Origin: Rhodoferax sp.
Lineage (GTDB): Bacteria > Pseudomonadota > Gammaproteobacteria > Burkholderiales > Burkholderiaceae_C
Direction: 5' to 3'
DNA length: 46,515 nt
Assembly (NCBI GenBank): GCA_013791765.1
Contig: VMTC01000039.1
Coordinates: forward strand, 1 to 46,515
Made by a program: the position numbers and the translations under genes. The notes beneath the pieces were generated by a model, which did not search any database, was not told the DNA's origin, and was given only the letters and a program-made list of their open reading frames with translations. Position 1 is the first letter of the stretch; the number at the start of each line of letters is the position of its first letter. This document shows positions 9,652 through 31,967 of the stretch, one piece after another.

Positions 9652-9661
9652 GGCGCCGCAA

Positions 9662-14902: not shown

Positions 14903-15721
14903 TTGAGCAGAAGTGACAGAGAAGAAAACAAGTCGGTCGCACTTTATTGGGACTTCGAGAACCTGCACGCCAGCCTGTGCGAGGCGCGCTTGGGCGAGGG
15001 TGCTTACAACAAGCCCGACGGTCGCTTCAAGGCGCAGGAGCCGCTGGTGGACGTGCAGGCGATTGTGGAGCTGGCAGCCTCTTTTGGCCCGATTGCGATC
15101 AACCGCGCCTACTGCAACTGGCAGTATTTTGGCCGCTACCGCGATGCCCTGCTGCAGGGCGCGGTGGAACTGATTCAACTGTTTTCCCCCGGTGCGTCAG
15201 CAAAAAACGGCGCAGACATCAAGTTGTGCCTGGATGCGGTAGAAGACATCAGCCGCTTTGGCCATATCGGCACCATCGTGATTGTGGGCGGCGACAGTGA
15301 CTTCATGCCGGTGTCACAAAAGATCAAGGCGGCCGGGCGCACGCTCATTGGCGTGGGCGCGCGCAAGTCAACCAACCGGCATTGGGCCAAGAGCTGCCAC
15401 GAGTTTCGCTACTACGAAAACCTGGTGGAAGCGTCGGCCCCAAGCGATGGTTTGCAGCCGGAGCTGCCCGTGCCAACTGCACCGGCGGAGCCGCCCAATG
15501 CCGCCGCCGAGATATTCAAGCGCGCTGTTCGCCTGCTGGCCGAGACCCAGGGCGATGCCTGGGTCAACAAGGGGTCGATCTGGCACATGATCAAACGGCT
15601 CGACCCTACTTTTGACACCAAAGACCATGGCTACGCCAGCTTCTCTGCGATGGTGAAGGCGCTGGAGGCGCTGGTGGAGATTCGCAAAGGGGAGTCGGAC
15701 CAGGTGCTGCGCTTGCGCTGA
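14903..15721 (+). CDS. NYN-domain RNase with C-terminal LOTUS (OST-HTH) domain
   Basis: The 272-residue product has an N-terminal NYN/LabA-type PIN-like nuclease domain (about 10-170). Acidic residues are at D17 (ALYWDFENLH), in NGADIKLCLDAVED, and in IVGGDSDFMP. A Pro/Ala linker follows (about 176-195), then a winged-helix LOTUS domain (about 198-268; GDAWVNKGSIWHMIKRLDP, then HGYASFSAMVKALEAL). This architecture is known from bacterial proteins proposed to cut or bind RNA. The start is TTG at 14903, preceded by AGGAAAA; no ATG or GTG fits. It may be cotranscribed with the usp gene. Confidence 0.85.
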   Translation: MSRSDREENKSVALYWDFENLHASLCEARLGEGAYNKPDGRFKAQEPLVDVQAIVELAASFGPIAINRAYCNWQYFGRYRDALLQGAVELIQLFSPGASAKNGADIKLCLDAVEDISRFGHIGTIVIVGGDSDFMPVSQKIKAAGRTLIGVGARKSTNRHWAKSCHEFRYYENLVEASAPSDGLQPELPVPTAPAEPPNAAAEIFKRAVRLLAETQGDAWVNKGSIWHMIKRLDPTFDTKDHGYASFSAMVKALEALVEIRKGESDQVLRLR

Positions 15722-15789
15722 ACGCTGGCGTGTGCTGGTGAGGGTTTCATTAATCCGCTAAAAATAGACAAGAACCGACAGGAAAATCG

Positions 15790-16356
15790 ATGAAATTCAA
15801 GATGCCCCCAAACTCGCTGTTTGCGATTCTTCTGCGCTCGCGCTGGTGGGTCAGCTTGCTGGTGGTGGCTGCGATCGTGCTGCTGTCAGCGGCCTTGTTG
15901 CCCGGGCCTTATGTGCCGTTCGGCGTGGTGGGCGCGCTGCCGTTTCTGGTGATTGCGCTGCTGGCGGCCTGGCGCCAGCGCCACGCGCCCGATCCGGCGC
16001 GCGTGGCGGCGGTACTCGCCCAAACGGCTTCAATGTCATGGCGTGATTTCGCCGCGCTGCTGGAGGCGGCTTTTCAGCGCCAAGGTTATGGGGTCACGCG
16101 GCTTAACCAGCCCGGCGCGGATTTTCAGTTGATCAAGGGCACGCGCACCACGCTGGTCAGTGGCAAGCGCTGGAAGGCGGCCAACACCGGGGTGCAGCCG
16201 CTGCAAGCGCTCTCCAACGCCCAGAGCGCTTTGGGCGCCAGTGCCAGCACCTTCATCAGCCTGGCACCGGTGAGCGACAGCGCTCAGCGCTTGGCCAAAG
16301 CGCAGGACATCCACCTAATGAGCCTGGCTGAATTGGCGCAACTGCTTGGTCCATAG
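15790..16356 (+). CDS. Membrane-anchored Mrr-like restriction-endonuclease-fold protein
   Basis: The 188-residue product has two membrane helices (about 20-37 and 43-62) and a cytoplasmic domain (about 80-188). WRDFAALLEAAFQRQGYGV, GADFQLIKGTRTTLVSGKRWK and GVQPLQALSNAQ align with the Mrr_cat pattern (GxDxx...xxK, then VQ). The usual QxK acid/polar position is SGK here, so catalytic activity is uncertain. GACAGGAAAATCG precedes the ATG. A role in DNA restriction is unproven; membrane-anchored Mrr-like proteins are common singletons in betaproteobacteria. Confidence 0.7.
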   Translation: MKFKMPPNSLFAILLRSRWWVSLLVVAAIVLLSAALLPGPYVPFGVVGALPFLVIALLAAWRQRHAPDPARVAAVLAQTASMSWRDFAALLEAAFQRQGYGVTRLNQPGADFQLIKGTRTTLVSGKRWKAANTGVQPLQALSNAQSALGASASTFISLAPVSDSAQRLAKAQDIHLMSLAELAQLLGP

Positions 16357-16522: not shown

Positions 16523-16610
16523 GCAGACAGCAGACAGCAGACAGCAGACAGCAGACAGCAGACAGCAGACAGCAGACAGCAGACAGCAGACAGCAGACAG
16601 CAGACAGCAG
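16523..16610. repeat. Heptanucleotide tandem repeat, about 12.5 copies
   Basis: The unit GCAGACA is repeated without a single error over 88 bases. Perfect identity suggests recent slippage or active copy-number change. A unit of seven is not a multiple of three, so any ORF across it would shift frame with each unit gained or lost; no convincing gene crosses it. It lies about 460 bases before the PFOR start. Confidence 0.95.
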
Positions 16611-16889
16611 GTGGCGGGCATGTCATTGCCTGCACCGCGTGGCCGGCAACTGCTGAACAACGCGGCTGGCAAGCCATGGCTTGATTTCTAAATATGGGTT
16701 TTTTGGTCCGTTGGCTTGCTGCAAAAATTGATTTATCCATCAGAACTTTGATCCATGCGTGATGCCGGGCTGATAAGCCCTTTTTTTTTGACATTGAATT
16801 TCCTATACTGAAAATTGGCTATCAGCCGAGCGGCTCAACTGCTCGTCTGCTGTTTTGGGGTCGGTGTTAAGCCACTTGCCTGTTTGTAG

Positions 16890-17067: not shown

Positions 17068-20000
17068 ATGAATACCAACAAGGCCAAATACCCCGGCATC
17101 CCCAATGTGATCCACGGCAACGGCGCGGTCGCCTACGTCATGAACCATGTCTGCAGCGGTGTAATCGGTTACCCCATCACCCCGTCGACCGAAATTGCCG
17201 AGATTTACGAGGCCTTCCGGGCCGAGGGCGGTATCAATGTCTGGGGCAAACACCCGTTTTTCTTCGGCCCGGAGGGCGAGCATTCGGCCCAAAGTGGTGC
17301 GCTGGGGGCCGCCTTGACGGGTGGGCAGTTCATTTCCAATGCCTCGTCGAGCCAGGGCATCTTGTACGCGCTTGAATCGCATTACGTGACCGTCGGCAAA
17401 AAGGTCGGTGGCTTTGTGCTGCAGGTCGCCGCGCGCGTGGTGTCCAAACATTCGCTCAACGTCATGGCCGGTCATGACGATGTTTATGCGTTGATGTCCT
17501 CGGGTTACACCATTTTGTTTGGTGCCAACCCGCAGGAAGCGGCCGACCTGGCGGCCATTTCTTACCGCGTGGCCTCGCTGTCGCTGATTCCAGTGGCCAA
17601 CGCCATGGACGGATTTGCCACCAGCCACATGCTGTGTGAAGCGCTGATGCCCGAGCCCGAACTGCTGGCCGAGTATCTGGGCGACCCGGCCGGGCGCATC
17701 AAGGCGCCGACGCTGGCACAGGAAATGCTCTACGGTGCCAGAGGCCGGGTGGCCCAGTTGCAGCAGTACCTGGCGCGCCGTCAGGCGGACTTGACGCCGG
17801 AAAACTTGGCCAAATTGCAGGTCTATCTTGACACCAACGCCGCCGAAGTAGAACAAGACAACGCCGGCCAACTCGTCGCCCGGACGCTGGGCTGGCTGCC
17901 CGAAGAATTGCACGGTCAATGGCAGCGCCAGTGGGTCAACGCCTTCGAGAAAGGCACGCGCCAGTTGGTGCCCGCCCTGGTGGATGTGAACAACCCGGGG
18001 CTCACCGGCGCGGTGCAAAATCAGGCCGACTTTCAGGCCGGTGCGGTCGATCACCGCACCCACTTTGTCAACGCGGTGCCTGGCATCGTGCGCCAGGCGA
18101 TGGACGAATACAGCGCATTAACCGGGCGCCAATACGCGCCGGTGCAGACCTTTATGTGTGACGATGCCGACACCGTGATGGTGGGCCTGGGCTCGGTCAC
18201 GGACGACGTCGAAGCGGTGGTCAGCCACCTGCGCGGCTTGGGCCAGAAGGTGGGCCTGATCGCCATCAAAATGCTGCAGCCCTTCCCGGAAGGCGAGCTG
18301 GTCGCTGCGCTGCAAGGCAAAAAGGCGGTCACCGTGCTGGAGCGCTCGGATCAGACGGCGCTCACCGGCCTGGTGACGCAGGCCTTGTTCAAGGCGCACG
18401 AAAACGCCGTGCAGTTGCGCCACCCGGGCATCCCGGCATTGAGCGCCAGCCCGCTGCTGACCACGGCGATCTTTGGTCTGGGCGGCCATGATTTGCAGCC
18501 GCGCCATTTGATTGCGGCTTTCAAGAGCATGCAAGACGGCAAGGTGGCGCCCTTGATCTATCTGGGCTCGCAGTTCTTTTCGCAAACGGCAACGCCGCGT
18601 GTGGCTGAACTGCAGGCCCGCCTGAAGCTGGCTTACCCTGAAACCGAGCTGATGGCGCTTGAAACCGAGGCCAATCCGAAGCTGCTGCCCGATGCCGGCT
18701 TTCGGGTGCGCTTTCACTCGGTCGGCGGCTACGGCACCATTGCCTCGGGCAAGCTGCTGACCGATATCCTGGCCGGTGTGCTGGAGATGCACTCCAAGTC
18801 GGCGCCCAAATACGGCTCCGAGAAAAGCGGCGCACCGACCAACTACTACATCACCCTGAGCCCGGAGCCGGTCAAGATCACCAACGCCGAACTGGAGGAT
18901 GTGGAAGTCGTCATCGCCCCGGATCACAAGGTGTTCAGTCACACCAATGCGCTGCTGGGGCTGGTCGCGGGCGGCACTTTTATTCTGCAGTCGAATGCGA
19001 CAGCCGAAGAGGTCTGGCAGGAGCTGCCGGCCCAGGCGCGCAAGACCATTCGCGCGCGCAGCATCAACTTTTTCATTGTGGATGCCTTTGCCGTGGCCAA
19101 AAAGCACGCGCCAACGCCGGAGCTGGCGACCCGCATGATGGGCATCGCCTTTATCGGCGCTGTCGCCGGTCACGTCAGTCAGGTCTCCAACGGCGCCGCG
19201 CCGGAGGTGATCCTGGAGAAAGTCCGCCAGCAAATTGCCAAGAAATTTGGCGGCAAGGGCGGCGCGGTGATGGAAGGCAACATGGCGGTCATCCGCGAGG
19301 GCATTGAGGCGACGCAAAAGGTGGATTACGCGCTCGATGCGTTTGCGCGTATCGACGCCAGGCCCGCGCCAATTGCGATTCACGATGCGTCGCTGTCGGC
19401 GTCGATGTGCCAGAGCGCAGGCAGCTCAAGCTGCGCAGGCATGTTTGACCGTGAATACTACGACGACATGGTGCTCAACCCGTTCCGCGAAGGCACCATT
19501 GGCGAAGCCCCGGTGCTGCCCGGCACCGGGCTGTTCATGCCCGCGGGCAGCGCAGGCGCCAAGGACAAAGGGCTGTTTCGCCGCAGCGTGCCCGAGTTCA
19601 AGGCCGATTTGTGCACCGGCTGCATGGAGTGCGCGCTGGTCTGCCCGGACGGTGCCATTCCTAACAGCGTGCATGACATTCATGAGCTGCTGCTCACGGG
19701 CATTGGCCAACTAGAGCTCCCACCGGCCCAGCATGAGGTCATGCGCGGCCATGTCTATGCGCTGACGGAAGGCGTGCGTGAAGCGTACCGCCAGAGCAAA
19801 CAAGCGCGACCGTTCCATGAGCTGGTGGCCGAGGCGGCGACCAGTCTTGAGACCGACAACGTCACCGTGCTGCGCAATTTCAGCAAGCTGATCGAGGCCT
19901 TGGCGCTCTATCCGGTGGCGCGCACGCGGCCGTTTTTTGATGCCATGGAAAAGGCCAAGCCCGGCAGCGGCGCGCTCTACGGCGTCAGCGTTGATCCGTG

Positions 20001-22059
20001 GAAATGCACCGGTTGCCTGGAATGTGTGGAGGTGTGCGGCCCAGGTGCCTTGGTCACCCGCGAGCAGGATGCGGCCCTGCTGCAAACCCTGCAACAGCGC
20101 TTTGATTTCCTGAGCAAGACACCCAACACGCCGGCGCGCTTTGTGGCCGATGCGATCAAGCCCGGCGGCGAGATCAAGCGCCTGCTGCTCGACCGCGCCA
20201 ACTACTACAGCACCACCGGCGGCCACGGCGCCTGCCGTGGCTGTGGCGAGGTCACTGCCACCCGTCTGGTCATGGCCACCAGCCATGCCCTTGCCGACAG
20301 ACGTCAGCGCGCGCATAGCCATGAGTTGGAGCGCCTCATTGACGGCATGAAGGACAAGCAAGCAACGCTGGCCGACGATGGTGCAGAGCGTCATCTACGC
20401 CTTGGCGCGCTCATCAGCACGCTGGAAAAGAGGCTTTATCTGTACGAGAGCGGCCCTACCGGCAACGGCCCGGCCGGCACGGTGGTGGCCAATTCGACCG
20501 GCTGCAGCAGTGTCTACGCCTCCACCTTTCCGTTCAACGCTTTCAAAGACCCGTGGGTCAACAGCCTGTTCCAGGACGCGCAGCCACTGGCCAAAGGCAT
20601 CTTTGAGGGCATTGCAGCGCAGACCGTCGGCGACGTGCGCGCGCTGCGCCTGGCGCGGCTGGAGCTCGCCGATGCTTACGACGCGCCAACCCATGACCCT
20701 GCCTTGCGCATGTTGTCGTGGGAGCAGTTCAGTGCGGCCGAGCTCGGCCTGATGCCCACGGTGATCACCATCGGTGGCGACGGCGCCACCTACGACATCG
20801 GTTTTGGCGCGCTGTCGCGCATTTTGATGAGTGGCACGCCGCTTAAAGTTCTGGTGCTCAATACCGGCTCTTATTCCAACACCGGCGGCCAAGCTTCTAC
20901 CTCGAGTTTTCTGGGGCAGGACTCTGACCTGGCGCGCTTTGGCTCTAACGCCACGGGCAAGCACGAGTCGCGCAAGGAACTCGGCCTGATCGCCGCTTTC
21001 CACTCCAATGTGTTTGTGTGCGCCACCAGCACCGCGCTGCAAGGCCACTTTCTGAAGAACACGATGGAGGCCCTGAGTTACACCGACGGGCCCGCTCTGC
21101 TGGATGTCTATACCCCTTGCCAGGGCGAGCAGGGCATTGGCGATGGTGCAGCGTCCGAGCGCTCGCGCTTGGCGGTCGAGAGCCGCATGAGCCCGGTGTT
21201 CGTGCATGACCCCCGCCGTGGTAGCACGCTGCACGACTGGTTCTCGCTCGAAGGCAACCCCGATCCGCTGCAGACCTGGGCCGCAACGACGCTGGAATAC
21301 CAGGATGACGAAGGCCAGCTCAAACTGATGAGCATGGCGCTGACACCGGCACACTTTGCCTTGGGTGAAGTGCGCTTCAAGAAGCAGTTTCACAAGCTCG
21401 GCGCCGACGAGGCCAGCGCAGTGCCGGTCGAAGCTTATATTGAGCTGTCCAAGGCCGATCGTGCGGGCAAGACCGCGTTCATCTGGTCCACCGACGCCAA
21501 CAAGCGCTTGGTCAAGATCGAAGTGGTCCAGGCCATCGTGGCGCTGGTTGAAGAGCGGCGCAAATACTGGCATTTGCTGCAGTTCCTGGACGGGCAGCAT
21601 GTGGCCAAAATGGACGAGAGCCATCGGCTCGGCATGGCCGCCTTGCAGGCCCAGTACCTTGATTCGGTGACGCAGCGCGACAGCTCGCTCGACTCGTTTG
21701 CGCGTGCCATGTCCGAGCTGGCCGCCGCCAGCAAGGCGCCGGTTGGCAGCGCCCGGGTCATACCGATCATGGCGCAATCTGCAAGCGCTGGCAGCGCCTC
21801 GGCCAGCCCTGCCGTTGGCGCGACGACTGAAGCGCTGGTGACCTACGACATCGCTGACCAGGTCAAATGCACCGACTGCAAGACCTGCTACCAGGATTTG
21901 CCCGAGCTGTTCGAGAAAACCCGCATCGTCGTGCATGGCGAGTCGCGTGATGTGGGTCAGCTGATTGTGGGCGCCATGGAGCGCATCAAAGTCACGCCCG
22001 AGTTGCAAATCCGCATCAAGCGGGTGGCGGCCAATTGCGACGCGGAGATTATTTCGTGA
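17068..22059 (+). CDS. Pyruvate:ferredoxin oxidoreductase-like enzyme with C-terminal ferredoxin domain
   Basis: The 1663-residue product follows the NifJ domain order: POR N-terminal domain (about 10-260, GYPITPSTEIAEIYE), domain II (about 355-480), gamma domain (about 540-720, FRVRFHSVGGYGTIASGK), EKR and two-cluster ferredoxin domain (C849-TGCMECALVCP, C980-TGCLECVEVC), and a TPP domain with C1056 and C1059 (GHGACRGCGE), GGDGATYDIGFGALSR and NTGSYSNTGGQAST. It is about 480 residues longer than E. coli YdbK. The extra length includes a further C-terminal part with Cx2Cx2C at 1601-1607 and C1657, resembling a single-cluster ferredoxin. It should oxidise pyruvate or another 2-oxoacid with CoA to acyl-CoA and CO2. 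It overlaps the next gene by GTGA. Confidence 0.85.
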   Translation: MNTNKAKYPGIPNVIHGNGAVAYVMNHVCSGVIGYPITPSTEIAEIYEAFRAEGGINVWGKHPFFFGPEGEHSAQSGALGAALTGGQFISNASSSQGILYALESHYVTVGKKVGGFVLQVAARVVSKHSLNVMAGHDDVYALMSSGYTILFGANPQEAADLAAISYRVASLSLIPVANAMDGFATSHMLCEALMPEPELLAEYLGDPAGRIKAPTLAQEMLYGARGRVAQLQQYLARRQADLTPENLAKLQVYLDTNAAEVEQDNAGQLVARTLGWLPEELHGQWQRQWVNAFEKGTRQLVPALVDVNNPGLTGAVQNQADFQAGAVDHRTHFVNAVPGIVRQAMDEYSALTGRQYAPVQTFMCDDADTVMVGLGSVTDDVEAVVSHLRGLGQKVGLIAIKMLQPFPEGELVAALQGKKAVTVLERSDQTALTGLVTQALFKAHENAVQLRHPGIPALSASPLLTTAIFGLGGHDLQPRHLIAAFKSMQDGKVAPLIYLGSQFFSQTATPRVAELQARLKLAYPETELMALETEANPKLLPDAGFRVRFHSVGGYGTIASGKLLTDILAGVLEMHSKSAPKYGSEKSGAPTNYYITLSPEPVKITNAELEDVEVVIAPDHKVFSHTNALLGLVAGGTFILQSNATAEEVWQELPAQARKTIRARSINFFIVDAFAVAKKHAPTPELATRMMGIAFIGAVAGHVSQVSNGAAPEVILEKVRQQIAKKFGGKGGAVMEGNMAVIREGIEATQKVDYALDAFARIDARPAPIAIHDASLSASMCQSAGSSSCAGMFDREYYDDMVLNPFREGTIGEAPVLPGTGLFMPAGSAGAKDKGLFRRSVPEFKADLCTGCMECALVCPDGAIPNSVHDIHELLLTGIGQLELPPAQHEVMRGHVYALTEGVREAYRQSKQARPFHELVAEAATSLETDNVTVLRNFSKLIEALALYPVARTRPFFDAMEKAKPGSGALYGVSVDPWKCTGCLECVEVCGPGALVTREQDAALLQTLQQRFDFLSKTPNTPARFVADAIKPGGEIKRLLLDRANYYSTTGGHGACRGCGEVTATRLVMATSHALADRRQRAHSHELERLIDGMKDKQATLADDGAERHLRLGALISTLEKRLYLYESGPTGNGPAGTVVANSTGCSSVYASTFPFNAFKDPWVNSLFQDAQPLAKGIFEGIAAQTVGDVRALRLARLELADAYDAPTHDPALRMLSWEQFSAAELGLMPTVITIGGDGATYDIGFGALSRILMSGTPLKVLVLNTGSYSNTGGQASTSSFLGQDSDLARFGSNATGKHESRKELGLIAAFHSNVFVCATSTALQGHFLKNTMEALSYTDGPALLDVYTPCQGEQGIGDGAASERSRLAVESRMSPVFVHDPRRGSTLHDWFSLEGNPDPLQTWAATTLEYQDDEGQLKLMSMALTPAHFALGEVRFKKQFHKLGADEASAVPVEAYIELSKADRAGKTAFIWSTDANKRLVKIEVVQAIVALVEERRKYWHLLQFLDGQHVAKMDESHRLGMAALQAQYLDSVTQRDSSLDSFARAMSELAAASKAPVGSARVIPIMAQSASAGSASASPAVGATTEALVTYDIADQVKCTDCKTCYQDLPELFEKTRIVVHGESRDVGQLIVGAMERIKVTPELQIRIKRVAANCDAEIIS

Positions 22060-24899
22060 GCACCGACGGCCCCAACCCAGCCAGCGGCGACGAATTGGGC
22101 CGCTACCGCAGCGCGAGCCGCACGCTTGATGCCACGCGCTCGCAAATCGACGCCCTGGAGCAAACCGAAGCGGTCGAGACATTTCATCGTCAGTTGGCGC
22201 TGTTGCGCCGTCGCCTGCTGAGCGAGCCGCAGGCCTTTCGCGACATCTTCATCGCTGACGGCAGCGAGGCCATGGTCTGGGAGTTTCAGCAAGACGAACT
22301 GGGCGCCGATTTCATGCGCACGCTGTGGGCCTTGATGCTGCGGGACGACGACACCAGCAAGGTGCTGATGCGCTTTGTCTGGAACGTGCCGCTCAAGCTT
22401 AAGCGCAAATTTGTGCGCGCCATCGACACCCATTTGTCAGACCGCTACCCGATGTTCAAGGGCCTGTCGCAAAACTGGCCGGCGGAGAATTACATTCCAC
22501 CCTTTATGCGTGACGCTGTGGAGCGCTCGCAAGACTTCGGCCTGGTGAACCAAGGTTACCTGGGCTACATGAGCCAGGGCTACAGCGCGCGCGAGGTTGA
22601 GATGTTTGTCTGGCTGGAAGCGCTGCGCGACAAGCAGTGCGAAGACAAGCCCTGCGAGCTGGGTCTGCATGTGGCAGGCCAAGCCGAGCCCAAGGGCGGC
22701 TGCCCGGTCAAGATTCATATCCCGGAAATGCTGGAACTGCTGGGCACTGGGCGCTTTCGCGAAGCGATGGAACTGATCGAAAACTGCAACCCTTTGCCCA
22801 ATGTGACCGGGCGCGTCTGCCCGCAGGAATTGCAGTGTCAGGGCGTTTGCACCCACAACAAGCAGCCGATCGAGATCGGCCAGATCGAGTGGTACCTGCC
22901 GCAACGCGAAAAGCTGGTCAATGCAGAGGGCATTGCGGCGCGCTTCGCCAATATTCCCGACCCCTGGGCCAAAGCCGACAAGCCGCCGGTGGCGGTGGTG
23001 GGCTCCGGACCCGCAGGGTTGATCAATGCGTACTTACTCGCCTCCGAGGGTTTCCCGGTGACGGTGTTCGAGGCCTTTCATGCCCTGGGCGGCGTGTTGC
23101 GCTACGGCATCCCTGAGTTCCGGCTACCCAACGACCTGATCGACGATGTGGTCGGCAAAATCAAACTGCTCGGCGGTAAGTTCGTCGCCAACTTTGTGGT
23201 CGGAAAAACGGCGACGCTGGAGGACCTGAAGCAAGCCGGCTTCTGGAAGATATTCATCGGCACCGGCGCCGGTCTGCCGCGTTTCATGAACGTGCCGGGC
23301 GAGCACCTGCTCAACGTCATGTCGGCCAACGAGTTTTTGACGCGCGTGAACCTGATGCAAGGCCTGCACCAGGACTACGAGACCCCGCTGCCCGAGACGC
23401 GCGGCAAACGCATCATGGTCATCGGCGGTGGCAACACGGCGATGGATGCCGCGCGCACGGCACGACGCCTGGGCGGCCTGGTCACCATCGTCTACCGCCG
23501 CACGCAGGCCGAAATGCCGGTGCGGGTCGAGGAATTGCACCATGCGTTGGAAGAAGGCATTGAACTCAAGGAACTGCGTGCGCCGCGTGAGTTTGTCGGC
23601 GACGACAAGACGCATTTTGTGACCCACAGCCTGCTGGATGTGATCGCGCTGGGCGCGCCCGATGCCTCGGGCCGGCGCAGTCCGGTCAGCACCGGCGAGT
23701 CCGAGTCGATGGCGGTGGACCTGGTCATCATGGCGCTGGGCAACACACCCAACCCGATCATCAAAGACTCCGAACCCAGCCTCAAGACCACCCAATGGGG
23801 CACCATTGATGTGGCGGCGGGCTCGCAACAGACCTCACTGGCGGGGGTGTATTCGGGTGGTGATGCAGCGCGTGGCGGCTCCACGGCGATTCGCGCCGCC
23901 GGTGACGGTCAGGCCGCCGCGCGTGAAATCGTCGGTGACATCAACCTGAGTGCGCGCGAGATCAGTGCCATGGTCAGGAGCGCTGCGCACTACACCAAAA
24001 TGGGTGCGGCGCCGCAGACGATTTTGCAGAAGATTGATCTGGCCGACGGCATTGTCGAGTTCATTGTGCATTCACCGCTGGTCGCCCAGGCAGCGCAGGC
24101 CGGCCAATTCGTGCGCGTGTTGCCGTGGGACAAGGGCGAGCTCATTCCGCTCACGCTGGCGGACTGGGACGCGACAGCTGGCACCATCTGCCTGGTGGTG
24201 CAAGCCATGGGCGCCAGCAGTATCGCTATCAACCATATGAAGGTGGGCGATGCCTTTACCGGTATCGCCGGTCCGCTGGGCTTGCCCAGCGCCGTGCACC
24301 GCTATGAAGGCCAGCAGACGGTGGTGTTCACTGCCGGTGGCCTGGGCTTGCCGCCGGTCTACCCGATCATGCGGGCGCATCTGCGCCTGGGCAACCACGT
24401 CACGCTGATTGCGGGCTTTCGCAATGCCGACTTGCTGTTCTGGGTCAAGGCGGGCGAGCGCGTTAGCCAACTGCAAGCCGAGTTCCCTGATTTGCTCAAC
24501 GTGATTTACACCAGCAACGACGGCAGCTTTGGCGCAAAGGGCTTTGTCACCACGCCGCTTGAAGCCATGCTCAAGGATGGGCAGACCAGCAAGGGTCGCA
24601 ACATCGCCGAAGTCGTCACCATTGGCCCGCCCTTGATGATGCGCGCTGTCAGTGATATGACCAAGCCCTATGGGGTGAAGACCGTTGCCAGCCTGAACTC
24701 GATCATGGTCGATGCCACCGGCATGTGCGGCGCCTGCATGGTGCCGGTGACGATTGACGGCAAGATGGTGCGCAAGCACGCCTGCGTTGACGGCCCCGAG
24801 CTCGACAGCCACATCATCGACTGGGACAAGTTCCTGCCGCGCTTTAACCAGTTCAAGCCGCAAGAGCAGGCCAGCCGGGTCACGCACGGCTTTGCCTGA
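22056..24899 (+). CDS. NfnB-NfnA-like fusion oxidoreductase with novel N-terminal domain
   Basis: The 947-residue product has an unrecognised N-terminal domain (1 to about 190). It is followed by a GltD/NfnB part: Fe-S cysteines C195, C200, C216, C255, C261, C265 (GRVCPQELQCQGVC), FAD motif VAVVGSGPAG near 312-321, and NAD(P) motif VIGGGNTAMD near 455. Next comes an NfnA/ferredoxin-NADP-reductase part (about 640-947) with AGQFVRVLPW, FTAGGLGLPPVYPIMRA and a 2Fe-2S-type set C891, C894, C910 (MCGACM...HAC). In Thermotoga and Clostridium, NfnA and NfnB are separate subunits that bifurcate electrons from NADPH to NAD and ferredoxin; here they are one chain in B-A order. GTG at 22056 has GGAG upstream and overlaps the PFOR stop. 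Confidence 0.8.
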   Translation: MSTDGPNPASGDELGRYRSASRTLDATRSQIDALEQTEAVETFHRQLALLRRRLLSEPQAFRDIFIADGSEAMVWEFQQDELGADFMRTLWALMLRDDDTSKVLMRFVWNVPLKLKRKFVRAIDTHLSDRYPMFKGLSQNWPAENYIPPFMRDAVERSQDFGLVNQGYLGYMSQGYSAREVEMFVWLEALRDKQCEDKPCELGLHVAGQAEPKGGCPVKIHIPEMLELLGTGRFREAMELIENCNPLPNVTGRVCPQELQCQGVCTHNKQPIEIGQIEWYLPQREKLVNAEGIAARFANIPDPWAKADKPPVAVVGSGPAGLINAYLLASEGFPVTVFEAFHALGGVLRYGIPEFRLPNDLIDDVVGKIKLLGGKFVANFVVGKTATLEDLKQAGFWKIFIGTGAGLPRFMNVPGEHLLNVMSANEFLTRVNLMQGLHQDYETPLPETRGKRIMVIGGGNTAMDAARTARRLGGLVTIVYRRTQAEMPVRVEELHHALEEGIELKELRAPREFVGDDKTHFVTHSLLDVIALGAPDASGRRSPVSTGESESMAVDLVIMALGNTPNPIIKDSEPSLKTTQWGTIDVAAGSQQTSLAGVYSGGDAARGGSTAIRAAGDGQAAAREIVGDINLSAREISAMVRSAAHYTKMGAAPQTILQKIDLADGIVEFIVHSPLVAQAAQAGQFVRVLPWDKGELIPLTLADWDATAGTICLVVQAMGASSIAINHMKVGDAFTGIAGPLGLPSAVHRYEGQQTVVFTAGGLGLPPVYPIMRAHLRLGNHVTLIAGFRNADLLFWVKAGERVSQLQAEFPDLLNVIYTSNDGSFGAKGFVTTPLEAMLKDGQTSKGRNIAEVVTIGPPLMMRAVSDMTKPYGVKTVASLNSIMVDATGMCGACMVPVTIDGKMVRKHACVDGPELDSHIIDWDKFLPRFNQFKPQEQASRVTHGFA

Positions 24900-24992: not shown

Positions 24993-25676
24993 TTACTGCA
25001 TGCTGTGCGTGTGGGCCGGCCGGGTATCGAGCGCACTGAGCAAGGCCGGCGTGATGTCCCCGGCAACCCGTACTGTCCCGCCGCGCTGCTGTGCGAATTG
25101 CTCGGCTGCACGCTTGTTGGCGAAGGCCGGCAAGTTGCCATTGCGCATGGGGCCCAGTGCCGTGGAGCCGTGCACATAAAAGGCTTGCCCGGCGGGCGTC
25201 CACTGACCGGTCTCGGTGTCCGTGACATAGGTGGCCGCAATCTCGCTGGCACTGCGTCCCGGGCTATAACGCGGCACCGCGTTCAGGTAGAGGTAAAGGC
25301 TCAGCGGCGAGTCAAAAAAATGGGCGTCACCATTGCTGAAGATCAGCTGCCCCGCCCATTGCGGCGTGCGTGCCGGGTACATGCCGCAGACCGGGCAGCG
25401 CGCGTCTTTTGGAATGGCGCGCGCTGCCAGCATGGCTTGAGGCCAGGCCGGGTCATAAGCTTGCGGCGGTGCCATCACACAGATGTCGTCGGGCACGGCG
25501 CCCATCTGGTTGGGGCTGGGGCGGGTCAGCGGCAGCGCAATCAGCAGCAGCGCCGCCAAGCTCAAGGCTGCGGCGATCACAAGCGCGCGGATTCGCTGCC
25601 GACTCGTCAATCCGCCGGACATGACGGAGCGACACCGAAAAAGCAGACCCTTGCGCGTCATGGCCACAGCGCTCAC
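24993..25676 (-). CDS. Second NosL-like protein, membrane-anchored
   Basis: The 227-residue product has an N-terminal membrane helix (about 30-50) and then a NosL-type domain. The motif CPVCGMYPARTPQWAGQLIF (C94, C97, M99) and the later GPMRNGNLPAFANKRAAEQF match the NosL copper-site region and C-terminal block. NosL proteins carry Cu(I) to NosZ assembly in the periplasm. It starts with GTG overlapping the nosL stop (GTGA), so it is coupled to nosL; ATG at 25661 is an alternative start. A second, larger NosL paralogue at the operon end is not part of the basic nos set. Confidence 0.75.
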   Translation of the reverse strand: MSAVAMTRKGLLFRCRSVMSGGLTSRQRIRALVIAAALSLAALLLIALPLTRPSPNQMGAVPDDICVMAPPQAYDPAWPQAMLAARAIPKDARCPVCGMYPARTPQWAGQLIFSNGDAHFFDSPLSLYLYLNAVPRYSPGRSASEIAATYVTDTETGQWTPAGQAFYVHGSTALGPMRNGNLPAFANKRAAEQFAQQRGGTVRVAGDITPALLSALDTRPAHTHSMQ

Positions 25677-26257
25677 ATCCGTGTGTCGTGCAGGGCGCCA
25701 CCGCTCAGGTCCACCATCTCGGGCTTCACGTCTTCATGGCGCAGCAATTTGCCACCATATTGCGCGATGAATTTCTCTGCATCGGGCGCTTGGGCGAAGC
25801 TGGCAATCGTCGGCCCCATGGAACCGTGGCGTTTGCTGCCCAGGACGTAAAGAGCGGTTTTGGCGTCGATCCAATGGCCACGCGGCTGCTCCCAACTGGC
25901 TTGGCCCATGTCCTGGACATAGACGGCGACCACTTTACGCACCTGCTCGGGCCGCAACAGCGTGTTGAACAGCTCGACCGTGTCGCAAAAGAAGACCGGT
26001 GCGGCTTGCCCGGCGTAAAAGATCTGCGCCTTGGGGCCAGGGTAGTCAGCCAGCAGCATGCCGTCGAGCTCGCAACTGGTGGCAGCGTCGATCTCCAGCG
26101 GCGCCAGTGCGGTGCCACTACCTGCACGTTCGCCGCAGGCGGTCAAGCCGGTGACTGCCGCGAGCGCGCCCAGCACGGCTAGGCTAAGGAGTTGGCGGCG
26201 CTCGCCGTCGGGGGTATTGATGGCCGCATCTTGGCGGCAGGAACAGGTGGTTTTCAT
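25673..26257 (-). CDS. nosL: NosL, copper chaperone lipoprotein for nitrous oxide reductase
   Basis: The 194-residue product has an RRQLLSLAVLG signal ending in the lipobox LTAC (C41). The mature protein has SCELDGMLLADYPGPKAQIF (C62, M67), the typical NosL metal-binding start, and GSMGPTIASFAQAPDAEKFI. It delivers copper for the Cu centres of NosZ, anchored to a membrane in the periplasm. Its start overlaps the nosY stop by four bases. The N-terminus also carries a CSC pair ahead of the signal, which is odd. Confidence 0.9.
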   Translation of the reverse strand: MKTTCSCRQDAAINTPDGERRQLLSLAVLGALAAVTGLTACGERAGSGTALAPLEIDAATSCELDGMLLADYPGPKAQIFYAGQAAPVFFCDTVELFNTLLRPEQVRKVVAVYVQDMGQASWEQPRGHWIDAKTALYVLGSKRHGSMGPTIASFAQAPDAEKFIAQYGGKLLRHEDVKPEMVDLSGGALHDTRM

Positions 26258-27069
26258 GGTTTGAATCTCCAGCGGGCAAATAGCAAGGGCACAACAATCC
26301 AGGCCAGCATCACCGCGCCCATCAGCCAGGGTTTGGCTAAGGCGGGGGGCACTATGCTGGTCAAGCCATACAGGGTGCGAACATCTTCCAGCGAGAAGAT
26401 ATTGAGGATGCGAAAAACATCGGCCGGGTTCAGCAGCAGCAGCCAGGCAAAAGCGTCGCCGCCATAAGCACCTCCGGTGGCGACCAGCGCGCCCAGCAGC
26501 AGCAAGTCAAACACCAGAACGAAGAAGAACCACAGTGCAATCGCCAGGCCGGAAGCGCGAGTGCGCTCACGCGTGAGCACCGACATCAACACCGCCAGAC
26601 TCAAAAAGGCCAGGCCCAGCAGCACGGAACTGATCATGAAGCCCAGATAATGATACAGCCCGGCCCAGCTGAACTGCTGGAACAAAAGCAGTGCCACCAG
26701 ACCAAAGCCGGTGAGCGTCGAGAGTGTGAGTGCAGCGGCCAGCCCCAGGTACTTTCCGAGCAGCAATTCGAGCCGGGTGATCGGCAGCGCCAGCAGCAGG
26801 TCGAGCGAGCCGCGCTCGCGCTCGCCCACCACGGCGTCAAAGCCGAGCAGCAGCGCAATCAGCGGAATCAGGTAAATGACCAGGCTGACCAGACTGGCAA
26901 TCGTGAATTCAATCGAACGCAGGCCGAGCTGCCCTTGCTGGGCGCCGCCAAAATAAGTGATTACGAGGGAGAACACCGTGAACACCAGCGCCACCACCAG
27001 CACCCAGCGGTTGCGCAATCGATCGCGAAACTCTTTCGCGGCCAGGGTCAGGATTTGGGTCCATTGCAT
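26254..27069 (-). CDS. nosY: NosY, ABC permease of the nos system
   Basis: The 271-residue product has six predicted membrane helices, starting ILTLAAKEFRDRLRNRWVLV. It includes AVVGERERGSLDLLLALPIT, the coupling segment common to NosY and other ABC-2-type permeases. With NosF it forms an ABC transporter that, together with NosD, is needed to mature the CuZ site. It lies 66 bases after nosF and overlaps nosL. Confidence 0.93.
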   Translation of the reverse strand: MQWTQILTLAAKEFRDRLRNRWVLVVALVFTVFSLVITYFGGAQQGQLGLRSIEFTIASLVSLVIYLIPLIALLLGFDAVVGERERGSLDLLLALPITRLELLLGKYLGLAAALTLSTLTGFGLVALLLFQQFSWAGLYHYLGFMISSVLLGLAFLSLAVLMSVLTRERTRASGLAIALWFFFVLVFDLLLLGALVATGGAYGGDAFAWLLLLNPADVFRILNIFSLEDVRTLYGLTSIVPPALAKPWLMGAVMLAWIVVPLLFARWRFKP

Positions 27070-27135
27070 TGTTTCACCTCAATCCGAAAACAAGCCTTCA
27101 GAGAAGACATTACTTGCACTCAAGTTATGTCCTCA

Positions 27136-28077
27136 CTAAAAGCCAAAAAAAACATCTTCCAGGGACGGTTCCTGGATGTTCAAGTCCAGCAACTTCGCGC
27201 CCAGACCGCCGAGTGCGCCCAGCACGGCCATCTTGGCCTCGCGCGGGCAACTCACGCGCAGGCCTGCCTCGGTGACGTCAGCGTGCACCCCGGTGATTGC
27301 GCCCAACAGCTGCTGAGCCTGCGCGACGCTTGAGGCGGCCAGGCGCAGTGTCAAGCTTAGTGGCAGCTGCATCTGATGGCGCAGATCCTGCACGCTGCCC
27401 ACCGCAGCAATTTTGCCGACCGCCATGATGGCCAGGCGGTCCACCCGCTCCTGCAACTCGGCCAGGATGTGGGAGGTGATCAGGACGGTGACACCGGCAT
27501 CACGCAAGTGGCGCAGCGTGACGTAAAAGTCGCGAATGGCCTGTGGGTCAAGGCCATTGGTGGGCTCATCGAGAAACAGCACGCTGGGTTCGCCCAGCAG
27601 CGCTTGGGCGAAACCCAGGCGCTGGCGCATGCCCTTGGAATACTCGCGCAGTGGCCGCTTGGCCGCATCAAGCAGACCGACGCGCTCCAGTGTGGGTTCA
27701 CATTGCGAAAAGGGTGCGCCCTTGAGCCGGGCAAAGAAGCGCAAGGTCTCCAGGCCGCTCAGGTTGTCGTACAGCACCACGTTTTCGGGCAGGTAGCCGA
27801 TGTGCCTGCGCGCCGCGCGAAAGTCACGTCCGCGTACCGACGCGCCATTGACCAGGATCTCGCCGGCGCTGGGCTCTGTCAACCCGAGCATCATCTTGAA
27901 CAGCGTGCTCTTGCCGGCGCCGTTGTGGCCGATCAGACCAAAGATTTCGCCGCGCTGCACGCTCAGGTCCACGCCGTCCACAGCATGCAAGGCGCCATAG
28001 TATTTTGCGACGCCGCGCGCTTCAATTGCCGGGCTCTCAAGCGCCGGGACTTTACTGGCCAGGGAAGTGCTTGCCAC
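27136..28077 (-). CDS. nosF: NosF, ABC ATPase of the nos system
   Basis: The 313-residue product has Walker A GHNGAGKST, signature YSKGMRQRLGFAQALLG, Walker B VLFLDEPTNGLD, and a C-terminal domain of about 80 residues as in other NosF proteins. It powers the NosDFY complex. The start is taken as GTG at 28077, with GGAG 9 bases upstream; this makes it overlap the end of nosD by 26 bases. A longer frame opens at 28134 but lies wholly within nosD and adds no conserved sequence. Confidence 0.92.
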   Translation of the reverse strand: MASTSLASKVPALESPAIEARGVAKYYGALHAVDGVDLSVQRGEIFGLIGHNGAGKSTLFKMMLGLTEPSAGEILVNGASVRGRDFRAARRHIGYLPENVVLYDNLSGLETLRFFARLKGAPFSQCEPTLERVGLLDAAKRPLREYSKGMRQRLGFAQALLGEPSVLFLDEPTNGLDPQAIRDFYVTLRHLRDAGVTVLITSHILAELQERVDRLAIMAVGKIAAVGSVQDLRHQMQLPLSLTLRLAASSVAQAQQLLGAITGVHADVTEAGLRVSCPREAKMAVLGALGGLGAKLLDLNIQEPSLEDVFFGF

Positions 28078-29314
28078 GCCATTGACTCCATTGTGTGTTT
28101 TGAGGATGCATGCGCGGCTTGGGGTCCACCACACTGGGCACGCGCAGCACCGGAAATTGCTGGCCCACCAGGCGCAGAGCCTGCACCGCCGGGCTGGCCA
28201 GCAGCAGTTTGATGCTGGGGTAGCGCCAGGTCAGGCGGTCCACCATGTCATTGGCCTCATAGCGCACGTCACCGATGCCGTTGGCGTCGCGATCCCAGCC
28301 GAGATAGTTGCCCCAGTGGTTGCCACTCTGGGCACCCCAGACCTCGTCGCGCGCACCGATATAGCGCACTTGCTCCCGGTTGGCAACAAAGTCATTGCCT
28401 TCCACCACGTTGCGGGTCGAGCCCGCCGCCAAATGCACACCCACCACGTTGTCCACCACCAGGTTGTTCTTGATCGTCACGTACTCGACATCGTAGATAA
28501 AAAGGCCGCGGTTGTTGCCTGCCACGACGTTGTTTTCAATCACCGAATCTTGCATGGTGCGCAGCATGATGCCGTGGTCCGAATTGCCCCAGGCCCGGTT
28601 ATTGCGTACGACCTGATCACGCACCTCCATCAGCGCCAGGCCGCCGCGGTTGTAGTAGCTGTCGTTGTCTTCCCACAGGTTGTAGTAAGAGTTCATGTAA
28701 TGCGTGCCGTAACGGCTGTGGTGCAGCCGGTTACCCTTGAACAGGGCGTGGTGCGACACATCGACGTAGAGCGCATCGCGCACGAAGCTGATGTTGTTGC
28801 CGATGATGCGCGCACCCTTGGTGTTGTAAAGCTGCACGCCGTTGCCGCGCTGCGAGGAGTTGTACTCGCGCTTGCCGGTGATGGTGTTGGATTCGATCAG
28901 CACGTCGTTGGCCTTCTCAATCCACAGGCCGAACAGGTTGTAGGTGAGGTCGCAGTGGCGCACCACGGCCCGATGCGCACCGGGGTAAATGTAAATACCC
29001 GAGTTCTGGTCTTTCAGGCTGTCGCCGGAATCGCGCACGATGATGCCTTCGATGACCACATCAGTCGCCGTCACGCGCACGGTGTCCCCGTGCTGGCTAC
29101 CACTGAGCGTGGGGCGATTTAGGCCACGCAGCGTGAGCGCCTTGTTGATCAGGAAGTTGCCGGTGTAAAAACCGCGCTCAATCTCCACCACATCGCCGGC
29201 TTGGGCGGCTTCAATCACCTGCTGCAGCGATTCGCCCGGCTTGACGCGCAGCGTCGCCGCTGGCGCGTTTGCCAGCCAGGCTGTCAGCAGCAGGAGAAGA
29301 AGAGGGCGCAGCAC
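28052..29314 (-). CDS. nosD: NosD, periplasmic beta-helix maturation factor
   Basis: The 420-residue product has a signal peptide (LLLLLLTAWLANAPAA) followed by a right-handed beta-helix of carbohydrate-binding/CASH repeats. Examples are SGIYIYPGAHRAVVRHCDL, NGVQLYNTKGARIIGNNISF and HGIMLRTMQDSVIENNVVAG. The C-terminal part has NHWGNYLGWDRDANGIGD. NosD binds NosL and the NosFY transporter on the periplasmic side. It starts with GTG five bases after the nosR stop. Confidence 0.95.
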   Translation of the reverse strand: MLRPLLLLLLTAWLANAPAATLRVKPGESLQQVIEAAQAGDVVEIERGFYTGNFLINKALTLRGLNRPTLSGSQHGDTVRVTATDVVIEGIIVRDSGDSLKDQNSGIYIYPGAHRAVVRHCDLTYNLFGLWIEKANDVLIESNTITGKREYNSSQRGNGVQLYNTKGARIIGNNISFVRDALYVDVSHHALFKGNRLHHSRYGTHYMNSYYNLWEDNDSYYNRGGLALMEVRDQVVRNNRAWGNSDHGIMLRTMQDSVIENNVVAGNNRGLFIYDVEYVTIKNNLVVDNVVGVHLAAGSTRNVVEGNDFVANREQVRYIGARDEVWGAQSGNHWGNYLGWDRDANGIGDVRYEANDMVDRLTWRYPSIKLLLASPAVQALRLVGQQFPVLRVPSVVDPKPRMHPQNTQWSQWRGKHFPGQ

Positions 29315-29318
29315 AGCG

Positions 29319-31967
29319 TCAGATTACCAACAGACCCAGCGCCTTGAGAGCGAGGAACAGCGCGGCACCGATCAGCAGGTTCTTGAAGCCCACATAACTC
29401 AGCATGTCCATGATGCTGGCGTAGCGGTAATGAGCCTGCCACCAGGGCCCGTCCTTGACATAGCGACGCCCGGACAAGCGAATCAAGACTTCGTACACGC
29501 TCCAGCCGATCCACCAGCCGATGATCGCGCTGGCCGACAGACGCCCCGTGGCCGCAAGTGCCCAAGCCACAGTGGCGGCCAGCGCCAGCGAAAAACCTGC
29601 AATTTGCAGCGCGCGCTGCGACTTCCAGCCCTGCGCTGTCCACGGCCACAGGTGGTCGACCAACTCCAGCCAGAGCGACTTCAAGCCGCTGGCCTGCGCC
29701 TTGTAGGGGCGCGCCACCGAATCGGTGGGCATGCGCGGGTCCGGGCCGTTGGCGGCCTTGCTGCTGATTTGCGACGTCACGCCGTCCGTGACCAGGCGGA
29801 TCGGAATGAAGTAGCCGTCGCGCCCGATCGGCGTGATCTCCAGCCCGTCGCGTTCACGGCGCTTGCGCTCCTTGGCCAGCGGCGGGCAACCTTTGACGTC
29901 GGTGTAGAGCACCATGCAGTCCAGGCAGTGCAGACATTCACGGTGGTCAATGCGACCGTCGGCGTCAATCGCCTGGGCGCCGCAACCGACGGCGCAGGCT
30001 TTGCAGCTGTTGCAGTCCTGCTTGCGCTTCAGGCCAAACCAGCGGAAGGTGCTGGGCATGGCCAGGGCAGCACCGAGCGGGCAGATGTATTTGCAGTAGG
30101 GGCGCTCGATGAACAGAGACAAGCCCAGAATCGCGCAGACAAACAAACCATAGGGCCAGGCCCGGTTGCTGATGCCGACCAAAAAGGTGGTTTTGAAGGG
30201 TTCGACCTCGGACAGTATTTCGGCCAGACCCATGGAGAACATCGACACCGTCAGCAGGCCAAAGAAGATGGCGTACTTCAGCCACTTGAGCCGGTCATGC
30301 CAGACGCGCGGCAATTGGCCTTGAAAGCGCTTCAGCCCGATCAGGCCACCAATTTTGTAGATCGCCTCGGACAGCGAGCCAAAGGGGCACAGCCAACCGC
30401 AAAACAGGCCGCGCCCGAATAAAAACACGGTCAGGATGATGAATATCCAGAACAGGAAGAGGAACGGGTCAGACAGAAAGAGCGACCAGGTCCAGTTGAA
30501 CAGCAGCGCGTGCAGCCAGGTCAGCACCTGTGTGATGGATGGCTGCGCCATGACACCAAATCCGACAAAGCCAATGCTCAGGGCCCAGGCGCTGTACTTG
30601 AAAGCATTGACCGGCCATTTGTTTTTGTGCGTCGAGCGGCGGGTGAGCTTCTCGCGAAACGCGTACACCACAGTGACGGCGATCAGCAGCAAGGCAAAAA
30701 AAACAATGCCGACGGCGCGCGACTTCCATACCTGCACCCAGGGCGCGTCCGGTTCCACAATGACCGGTCGGCCGCCTTGCAGCAACTCAGGTGCCAGCCA
30801 ATACTTGGTGCTGAAACTGGTAAAGCTGCGCTTGCCGGTGGCGGCGTCGACGCGGTTGCCCAGGAACGAGAGTTCCCAGGGATGGGCCGCCGAGAACGAT
30901 TTGGTGCGGATGATAAAGATGCCCGACTCGGTGAAGCTCGGTGCCCCGGCAGCCTCCAGACCGTACAGGTTGAGGTAGTCAGTGTCGCGGAAGGTGAATA
31001 AATCGGCGCCCTGTCTGACCTGGATGCGGTCGTAGATGCCGCCGCGAACAAAGCCGGAGCCTTTGAAGGATTCGTTGCCAGCGGTGCGCACGACGAAGAG
31101 CGCGCTTTCGCCCTCTTTGAGTTGCAGGCGCAGGTTGTTCCAGCTGTTGTTGCCCAGCACACTGGCACCGACATCGGGGTGATTGAGGTCACCAAACCAA
31201 AGTTCGATGAAGGGCTCAGGGCCCCGCGCCAGACCCACTTGTTCCGGCTTGACGAGCAGTCGCTGCACGCTGCCCTGCTTGATCAGTTGCTCCCAGCTCA
31301 GGCGTTGGCCGGTCGCCGCAAAACGCGCGGACTCTCGCATGGTCGGCGCCAGAATGCCCACTTGACGCGCCACTGCCGTGCCCGACGTCATCATGACCTG
31401 GTTTTGCGCGATCACCGTGACGGTGGCGCCTGAAATCGCGTCCACGCCCAGCACGCCTTCATCGGGGCGCGACTGACCGACCTCAATTTTGTCTGCGACC
31501 GACTTGCCAATGTACTGGTTATTGAAGTTCAGCAGAGCCGATTCGGGAATGCCCAGCAGCAGGATAGGCTCGGAATGCTTGAGTACCTTCACGCCAACAA
31601 AGTGGCCTGTGAGGTCGATGCCAATGAGTGTGACCACCGGCTTGCCCGAGTAGGCCGGCGTGTCAGTGATGTCGGTGGACAGCATGACGTAGCCCAGCAA
31701 TTTCTTTTTGCCAGCCTCGGGCTCGCCGTAAGCCTCAACATAAGGCGGTTGGCCCATGCGTTCGGAAAAGCTCCTGGCGCCCGGGAACACGTCGGTACAC
31801 GGCACCAGTGCGCACAAATCTTTGGCGCTATTGAGTTCCGGCGATAGCTCGACGTTGTAGGCGCCGCTGGCCGCGCGCGCGCCCGTCGCTGCCGTGAGCA
31901 GCATCAAAAAAAGAGCGACCAGGCAGAGTACTACGTTGGTCGCCAAACGTTTGCAGTGCAAATCCAT
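29319..31967 (-). CDS. nosR: NosR, flavo-iron-sulfur membrane protein, with C-terminal extension
   Basis: The 882-residue product has a signal peptide, a periplasmic FMN-binding domain with the flavinylation motif SGATVT (T182), membrane helices from about 415, and cytoplasmic Fe-S segments: RGLFCGWLCPFG, YCKYICPLGA, CNSCKACAVGCGAQAID and CLHCLDC. NosR passes quinol electrons toward NosZ and is needed for nos expression. FMN would be attached by the ApbE/NosX protein encoded at 34666-35700. The last 130 or so residues add about three membrane helices; the 725-residue Pseudomonas stutzeri NosR lacks these. Confidence 0.95.
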   Translation of the reverse strand: MDLHCKRLATNVVLCLVALFLMLLTAATGARAASGAYNVELSPELNSAKDLCALVPCTDVFPGARSFSERMGQPPYVEAYGEPEAGKKKLLGYVMLSTDITDTPAYSGKPVVTLIGIDLTGHFVGVKVLKHSEPILLLGIPESALLNFNNQYIGKSVADKIEVGQSRPDEGVLGVDAISGATVTVIAQNQVMMTSGTAVARQVGILAPTMRESARFAATGQRLSWEQLIKQGSVQRLLVKPEQVGLARGPEPFIELWFGDLNHPDVGASVLGNNSWNNLRLQLKEGESALFVVRTAGNESFKGSGFVRGGIYDRIQVRQGADLFTFRDTDYLNLYGLEAAGAPSFTESGIFIIRTKSFSAAHPWELSFLGNRVDAATGKRSFTSFSTKYWLAPELLQGGRPVIVEPDAPWVQVWKSRAVGIVFFALLLIAVTVVYAFREKLTRRSTHKNKWPVNAFKYSAWALSIGFVGFGVMAQPSITQVLTWLHALLFNWTWSLFLSDPFLFLFWIFIILTVFLFGRGLFCGWLCPFGSLSEAIYKIGGLIGLKRFQGQLPRVWHDRLKWLKYAIFFGLLTVSMFSMGLAEILSEVEPFKTTFLVGISNRAWPYGLFVCAILGLSLFIERPYCKYICPLGAALAMPSTFRWFGLKRKQDCNSCKACAVGCGAQAIDADGRIDHRECLHCLDCMVLYTDVKGCPPLAKERKRRERDGLEITPIGRDGYFIPIRLVTDGVTSQISSKAANGPDPRMPTDSVARPYKAQASGLKSLWLELVDHLWPWTAQGWKSQRALQIAGFSLALAATVAWALAATGRLSASAIIGWWIGWSVYEVLIRLSGRRYVKDGPWWQAHYRYASIMDMLSYVGFKNLLIGAALFLALKALGLLVI

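Follow-up and report, generated by a model that had tools for sequence, protein, structure and literature searches.

The locus described here raises the question of where the electrons of a 2-oxoacid go when its oxidoreductase is encoded head to tail with a flavoprotein of the Nfn type. It lies on contig VMTC01000039.1 of Rhodoferax sp. (GenBank assembly GCA_013791765.1), the 46,515 nucleotides of which are referred to as the window. Within it, the gene for a long PFOR-type 2-oxoacid oxidoreductase (protein 1) is followed immediately by the gene for a fused NfnB-NfnA protein (protein 2, the Nfn fusion). The gene pair is real and conserved. With moderate confidence, and judging from the encoded proteins, we propose that the two would act together as a pyruvate:NADP(H)/NAD(H) oxidoreductase, a single electron-transfer complex that turns pyruvate into acetyl-CoA and NADPH, probably by confurcation with NADH.

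We scanned genome contigs for protein 2 with six peptide patterns and retained the best 80 of 137 confirmed stretches; distant relatives are therefore under-sampled. A PFOR of the window type was found directly upstream of the Nfn fusion in 77 of the 80 loci, so the co-occurrence that the first-pass annotation had named as a check was borne out. The best segments of these 77 upstream PFORs were 53–96% identical to the window PFOR. Protein 2 scored 1853 bits against NF009415/PRK12779 (curated cut-off, 1519); this score, together with the recurrence of the pair in 77/80 loci, indicated that the pairing is beyond chance. The translational coupling proposed in the same annotation also held, because a 4-nt ATGA/GTGA overlap between PFOR and Nfn genes was kept in 62 of the 77 loci; seven more had an 11-nt overlap. 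For this reason GTG 22056 (22056-22058), which overlaps the PFOR stop codon TGA (22057-22059), appears the likelier start of the Nfn fusion than TTG 22035, with which the mechanical listing of open reading frames (ORFs) begins it. The distance matrices of both proteins were correlated (r = 0.93, Mantel test with 60 entries; reached by 0 of 999 permutations), indicating co-inheritance. Among the 45 ORF clusters listed, none outside the pair occurred in more than 14 of 81 loci.

Among 89 genomes of the genus, NF009415 matched in 20 and a window-type PFOR was present in 24, with both in 19. Eighteen of the 19 have the two genes as neighbours on a single contig; in G592, the contig stops inside the Nfn gene, after the PFOR gene. 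In six genus genomes with a single match, the contig ends inside or just past that gene, and in G582 the Nfn ORF runs for 216 residues before the contig stops. The genus counts and the 80-locus counts are not independent, because several genomes are the same records. In a sample of 250 genomes of the family, either gene was found only in the window's own genome (E 1e-200/1e-150), and among 274 genomes of the class NF009415 matched at E 1e-200 in two, one of them a fragment. No PLSDB match indicating plasmid carriage was obtained at E 1e-100. The locus titles span Alpha-, Beta- and Gammaproteobacteria and Actinomycetes and include Rhodoferax, Accumulibacter, Propionivibrio, Paludibacterium, Rhodopseudomonas, Blastochloris, Roseiarcus, Cohaesibacter, Chromatiaceae, Tetrasphaera, Demequina, Cellulomonas and Bifidobacteriaceae. 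Many of these records are metagenome-assembled genomes (MAGs), and any one title may therefore be in error. The pair is thus rare and patchy, and it is inseparable where this could be tested.

For residue counts, 62 PFOR and 74 Nfn sequences were aligned, after 7 of the 80 Nfn loci and 16 of the 77 PFOR loci had been excluded from alignments as partial or frame-broken (Nfn alignment A1 contained 46 of the 80 loci plus the window, and A2 contained 40 plus the window). The PFOR assignment rests on four domain types and a three-cluster 4Fe-4S ligand set. Pfam placed POR_N, PFOR_II, POR-gamma, Fer4 and thiamine pyrophosphate (TPP) domains in protein 1, and twelve core Cys (849, 852, 855, 859, 980, 983, 986, 990, 1056, 1059, 1146 and 1351) were invariant in 62/62 sequences. 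The last four are presumably the proximal-cluster ligands, roles that we carry over from PFOR. YPITPST was found in 61 of the 62 PFORs, and a VAAR segment aligned with PFOR 6cin; residues of this kind have a substrate role in PFOR. The solved PFORs 1b0p and 6cin share the catalytic and Fe-S domains of the window protein, but the latter is longer by about 430–490 residues, carries inserts and a C-terminal ferredoxin arm, and falls under the TIGR02176 cut-off. One insert, at about residues 226-300, was missing from two Rnf-linked sister PFORs (see below) and likewise from this genome's classic PFOR, and is a candidate docking part; another, near 867-970, was common to the window PFOR and the Rnf-linked sisters.

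That the PFOR has its own ferredoxin-like tail was confirmed: the C-terminal CxxCxxC...C motif has Cys invariant in 62/62 sequences. The tail is preceded by a linker of 33–46 residues, of which 74% are A/P/G/S/T/N compared with 41% in the whole protein (58 of the 62 sequences measured). Conservation dips to 0.44 across the linker and recovers to 0.64 across the tail ferredoxin. A linker rich in A, P and G and low in conservation, followed by a conserved ferredoxin, is what a swinging arm would look like.

Protein 2 belongs to a known family. Its GltD part precedes its PyrK part, with ~200 extra residues, as in NF009415; in 14 control genomes this model gave some match in all 14 and exceeded its cut-off in none. 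Fused Nfn has been catalogued as "Pattern C", uncharacterised, in Actinobacteria and in Alpha- and Gammaproteobacteria (Liang 2019, PMC6405883, in its accessible passages). The single-chain arrangement described in the first-pass annotation was found as stated, with a GltD/NfnB part at residues ~213-625 and a PyrK/NfnA part at residues ~653-940 (numbered from the GTG), and the order name NfnB-NfnA is right by the NfnA/NfnB naming in the accessible passages of PMC6405883. The N-terminal ~190 residues are an extra part that the annotation had passed over.

The closest solved relatives of protein 2 were P. furiosus NfnI and T. maritima Nfn, for both large and small subunits. In an AlphaFold model of protein 2 (mean predicted local distance difference test [pLDDT], 81), the NfnB and NfnA parts gave TMt values of 0.87 and 0.89, respectively, against P. 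furiosus NfnI, and the best GltD gave 0.83. The proximal motif GRVCPQExQCx3C and the following Gx2E were present in 74/74 sequences, although in the window protein W takes the place of the R that follows the E in the published motif. GIPEFRLP, containing the Arg at N5 of b-FAD (FAD, flavin adenine dinucleotide), and YRR were likewise present in 74/74. The N5 Arg, the register of which was hand-counted against 4ylf_B, corresponds to the flavin N5 Arg187 of T. maritima Nfn (PMC6405883, accessible passages), and on our reading of the sequence YRR would be the published NADP-phosphate Arg pair. For the N-terminal domain, no PDB relative was found by sequence (E 10) and none by fold (best E 1.3; the model is weak, with a mean pLDDT of 73); this helical, conserved domain may dock the PFOR arm. 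A glutamate-synthase-like (GltD) role for protein 2 was considered and rejected: the partner is a PFOR in 77/80 loci, an NfnA part is present, and Nfn outscores GltD.

Several observations weigh against a single bifurcating complex acting on pyruvate. One locus (L076), the match in which starts 328 bases from the contig end, shows no PFOR in those upstream bases; the two other loci lacking an upstream PFOR (L047 and L082) begin at a contig end. At 6 of the 77 junctions the genes do not overlap, and the nearest in-frame start comes only after a gap of 3–174 nt (these loci are titled Gammaproteobacteria, Chromatiaceae or unclassified Proteobacteria), and two more (L039 and L087) are unreadable because the frames are broken. 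Co-transcription alone is no proof of a complex. The tail gave no Pfam match, and in the PDB only a weak match to ferredoxin 7m1o (E 0.0037). Against TIGR02176, the pyruvate-specific equivalog, the window PFOR scored 391.8 bits, far under the cut-off of 911.35, which leaves the substrate uncertain. The strict forms of three Nfn motifs were found in 0/74 sequences. For the distal cluster, RCx2Cx4Cx3CPV is replaced by RDx2Cx4C in 74/74, with 14–19 residues from the motif to CPV in the 71 of 74 sequences measured (15 in 59); D192 is in register with RCLMC of the separate NfnB of the same genome by eye, MAFFT itself having aligned it otherwise. For the 2Fe-2S cluster, DGTGMCGxCRx10CV is replaced by a version with a longer loop that keeps the Asp and three Cys in 74/74, and for the a-FAD strand ERxPxT is replaced by GELxPxT in 74/74. 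An N5-type Arg also occurs in two further GltD-like proteins of the same genome, so by itself it is no proof of bifurcation. In the model of protein 2, pLDDT is below 50 at residues 199-202, 343-355 and 887-890, which adjoin the distal-cluster, b-FAD and 2Fe-2S motifs, and the model therefore lends no support to their local geometry.

The Asp at the distal cluster, the altered 2Fe-2S spacing and the changed a-FAD strand would also suit a non-bifurcating pyruvate:NADP+ oxidoreductase, with the same complex and arm, in which electrons reach only NADP+ at b-FAD and the NfnA part is vestigial or otherwise used, as in P. furiosus NfnII/Xfn. Apparently non-bifurcating Nfn homologues exist, according to the accessible passages of PMC6405883 and PMC5861303. 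We nevertheless consider this alternative unlikely, since the NfnA part is complete, retains its 2Fe-2S ligands in 74/74 sequences, and scores higher with NfnI (277 bits in the small-subunit profiles) than with Xfn (147 bits). Another explanation rests on reversibility and on acetate-assimilating carriers of the pair. PFOR is a reversible enzyme. So is Nfn (PMC5861303, accessible passages). By title, carriers of the pair include Rhodopseudomonas, Blastochloris and Accumulibacter. All three assimilate acetate. However, other carriers are fermentative or heterotrophic (Propionivibrio, and MAGs with the titles Bifidobacteriaceae and Demequina), and no further gene accompanies the pair among the 45 ORF clusters listed; we regard this explanation as quite improbable. 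A last alternative is that the operon encodes two independent soluble enzymes linked by free ferredoxin, as the classic PFOR and Nfn are, with the tail no more than an extra cluster. This is very improbable in view of the ferredoxin-like tail with its invariant Cys and flexible linker, the extra domain on the Nfn partner, and the gene coupling in 77/80 loci.

Because the PFOR carries its own ferredoxin, the genes are translationally coupled, their co-occurrence is strict, and the partner holds an Nfn-like chain of flavins and Fe-S clusters, our best inference is that electrons pass directly from one protein to the other within a single complex. In such a complex, the PFOR would convert pyruvate and CoA to acetyl-CoA and CO2, and the electrons would pass from TPP through the three 4Fe-4S clusters to the ferredoxin swinging on its Ala/Pro-rich linker. 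The arm ferredoxin would dock on the Nfn fusion at its Asp-ligated distal cluster, possibly steered by the N-terminal helical domain, and electrons would continue through the proximal 4Fe-4S cluster to b-FAD, where NADP+ would be reduced. The 2Fe-2S/a-FAD branch would be the NADH input, resulting in confurcation and a yield of up to 2 NADPH per pyruvate under low oxygen. The Nfn chemistry on which this scheme draws is 2 Fd- + NADH + 2 NADP+ -> NAD+ + 2 NADPH (PMC5861303, accessible passages). In the window's own genome, a draft of 136 contigs, no RnfC_N match was found, compared with 9 of 14 control genomes, and the NifH-type matches were weak and partial (best, 36 bits); known sinks for low-potential electrons are therefore few. 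Two PhaC genes in the genome could provide a sink for NADPH, so that an outlet in NADPH would fit.

A sister long PFOR, 33–36% identical to the window PFOR, also has a C-terminal ferredoxin (Fer4_13 in L030). It lies between RnfB and RnfC-RnfD in all seven genomes of the genus that carry it, and also in L030, a Rhodocyclaceae MAG in which it stands just downstream of a PFOR-Nfn pair. Among the 89 genus genomes (E 1e-100), 24 had the window type and seven the Rnf-linked type, with no overlap, an exclusivity that may be due to chance (P = 0.10, relatedness ignored). The position of this armed sister inside Rnf operons hints at a general design of a ferredoxin-armed PFOR with a dedicated partner. 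We tentatively suggest, as a view about as open to doubt as to belief, that ferredoxin-armed long PFORs may be a modular platform in facultative anaerobes, in which the arm hands pyruvate electrons to a dedicated partner (a bifurcating Nfn fusion with soluble NADPH as output, or the ion-pumping Rnf) in place of a pool of free ferredoxin. In the PFOR-Nfn pair, pyruvate oxidation would then be tied physically to flavin-based electron bifurcation. We know of no described pyruvate oxidoreductase of that kind.

The first-pass annotation had stated that in known systems these activities belong to separate soluble enzymes, which is overstated. Single complexes in which a flavoprotein subunit links a 2-oxoacid oxidoreductase to NAD(P) reportedly include phenylglyoxylate:NAD+ oxidoreductase and the Azoarcus 2-oxoglutarate:NADP+ oxidoreductase (compare Hirsch et al. 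1998), and the window's own genome likewise has Por gamma-alpha-beta genes beside that of a GltD-like flavoprotein (see below). The two known enzymes resemble the window pair in being hard-wired to NAD(P) by a flavoprotein, but they consist of separate small subunits and have no NfnA part, and hence no second pyridine nucleotide site. The pyruvate:NADP+ oxidoreductase (PNO) of Euglena and Cryptosporidium is a PFOR made NADP-dependent by a fused flavodoxin/P450-reductase part; the likeness is that a reductase attached to PFOR gives NADP dependence. A PNO-type fusion was rejected for protein 1, which has no flavodoxin Pfam match. With NfnAB (C. kluyveri, T. maritima, P. furiosus NfnI), the window Nfn shares the b-FAD, two 4Fe-4S, 2Fe-2S and a-FAD modules, the NADP Arg pair and the N5 Arg. 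It differs in being fused in reversed gene order, with an extra N-terminal domain and a dedicated PFOR, in the replacement of one distal Cys by Asp, accompanied by an insert (15 residues in 59/71), and in its longer 2Fe-2S loop. Fused Nfn was, moreover, already in print (PMC6405883, accessible passages): protein 2 shares with Pattern C/NF009415 the domain order and the ~200 extra residues. In the accessible passages of that paper, Pattern C is not tied to PFOR, which is named once, in the legend of a gene-arrangement figure where a PFOR neighbour may be drawn; there Pattern C also holds the earliest branches of the rooted Nfn tree (citing Poudel 2018). No PFOR-Nfn pair was described in the literature titles and abstract openings found, from which we do not claim a wider absence from print, and the constant PFOR partner, tethered ferredoxin, distal Asp and orphan N-terminal helical domain had no description in the accessible literature listings and passages. 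The coupled PFOR-Nfn design is a variation on the known PFOR and Nfn systems, and its Nfn component was already catalogued.

Features of the PFOR-Nfn locus in the window, with the Rnf-linked sister PFOR of other loci in the last line
Feature	Position	Strand	Basis or conservation
Long PFOR-type 2-oxoacid oxidoreductase, 1663 aa, ATG start	17068..22059	+	ORF listing, domain and profile matches
PFOR insert, about residues 226-300, candidate docking part	17743..17967	+	four-sequence alignment; conservation 0.62
First 4Fe-4S motif, PFOR ferredoxin domain (C849, C852, C855, C859)	19612..19644	+	62/62
Second 4Fe-4S motif, PFOR (C980, C983, C986, C990)	20005..20037	+	62/62
Presumed proximal-cluster ligands (C1056, C1059, C1146, C1351) and TPP-binding domain	20233..21120	+	each Cys 62/62; TPP_enzyme_C
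Ala/Pro/Gly/Ser-rich linker, residues 1556-1592, presumed flexible arm	21733..21843	+	
Tethered single-cluster ferredoxin domain (C1601, C1604, C1607, C1657)	21850..22056	+	each Cys 62/62
GTGA, overlap of PFOR stop and likely Nfn-fusion start	22056..22059	+	
Fused NfnB-NfnA protein, 947 aa from GTG (NF009415/PRK12779; Pattern C Nfn)	22056..24899	+	
N-terminal helical domain of Nfn fusion, residues 1-191	22056..22628	+	conserved
Distal cluster motif R-D192-x2-C195-x4-C200 (Asp at first Cys of classical NfnB)	22629..22655	+	74/74
NfnB/GltD-like part: proximal cluster, b-FAD and NADP(H) sites	22692..23930	+	
NfnA/PyrK-like part: a-FAD and NAD(H) sites	24012..24875	+	
2Fe-2S motif D886-x-TGMCGxC...C910	24711..24785	+	74/74
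Sister PFOR in Rnf operon (RnfB-PFOR-RnfC-RnfD)	L030:6490-14892; L100; L105-L110		

Upstream of the pair, at 14903-16356, are an ORF with an NYN/LOTUS domain and one with Mrr_cat (restriction endonuclease-like), and the intergenic region upstream of the PFOR gene contains a short head-to-tail CAGACAG-type repeat at about 16530-16611. No FNR box (TTGATNNNNATCAA, 2 mismatches) was found between 16357 and 17068. In the whole window there were 28 FNR-box-like sites at 2 mismatches, compared with a mean of 9.4 in shuffled sequences (0 of 100 shuffles reached 28). One such site (TTGAGCATCATCAA, 34104-34117) stands with a nitrous oxide reductase cluster (NosL, NosD, NosR-like and NosZ; 24993-34001, minus strand).

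The same genome encodes other 2-oxoacid oxidoreductases. One contig (C18) carries a classic PFOR of ~1203 residues. Another (C24; L102, 4205-8781) carries Por gamma, alpha and beta genes and, after them, the gene for a GltD-like flavoprotein (NF009410) that has a ferredoxin end; the label "PadEFGHI-like" was rejected for this set, because the PorA/PorB/PorC models fit its subunits better than the Pad models do, although none of the equivalog cut-offs shown is passed. On a third (C48; L103, about 4775-10219), separate NfnA and NfnB genes lie directly upstream of KorA/KorB-like genes. The ORF after KorB (781 aa, L103:10161-12506) has no Pfam match, and it gave a weak match (24% over 330 residues) to the TPP/post-TPP part of the window PFOR.

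If the proposed complex is real, the low-potential electrons of pyruvate would not have to pass through a free ferredoxin pool but would go straight to NADPH with NADH input. Facultative anaerobes, such as those titled Accumulibacter, Propionivibrio and Rhodopseudomonas, would then have a means of making acetyl-CoA and NADPH together. The pair would also give the uncharacterised Pattern C Nfn a proposed function and provide a model of electron delivery by a tethered carrier.

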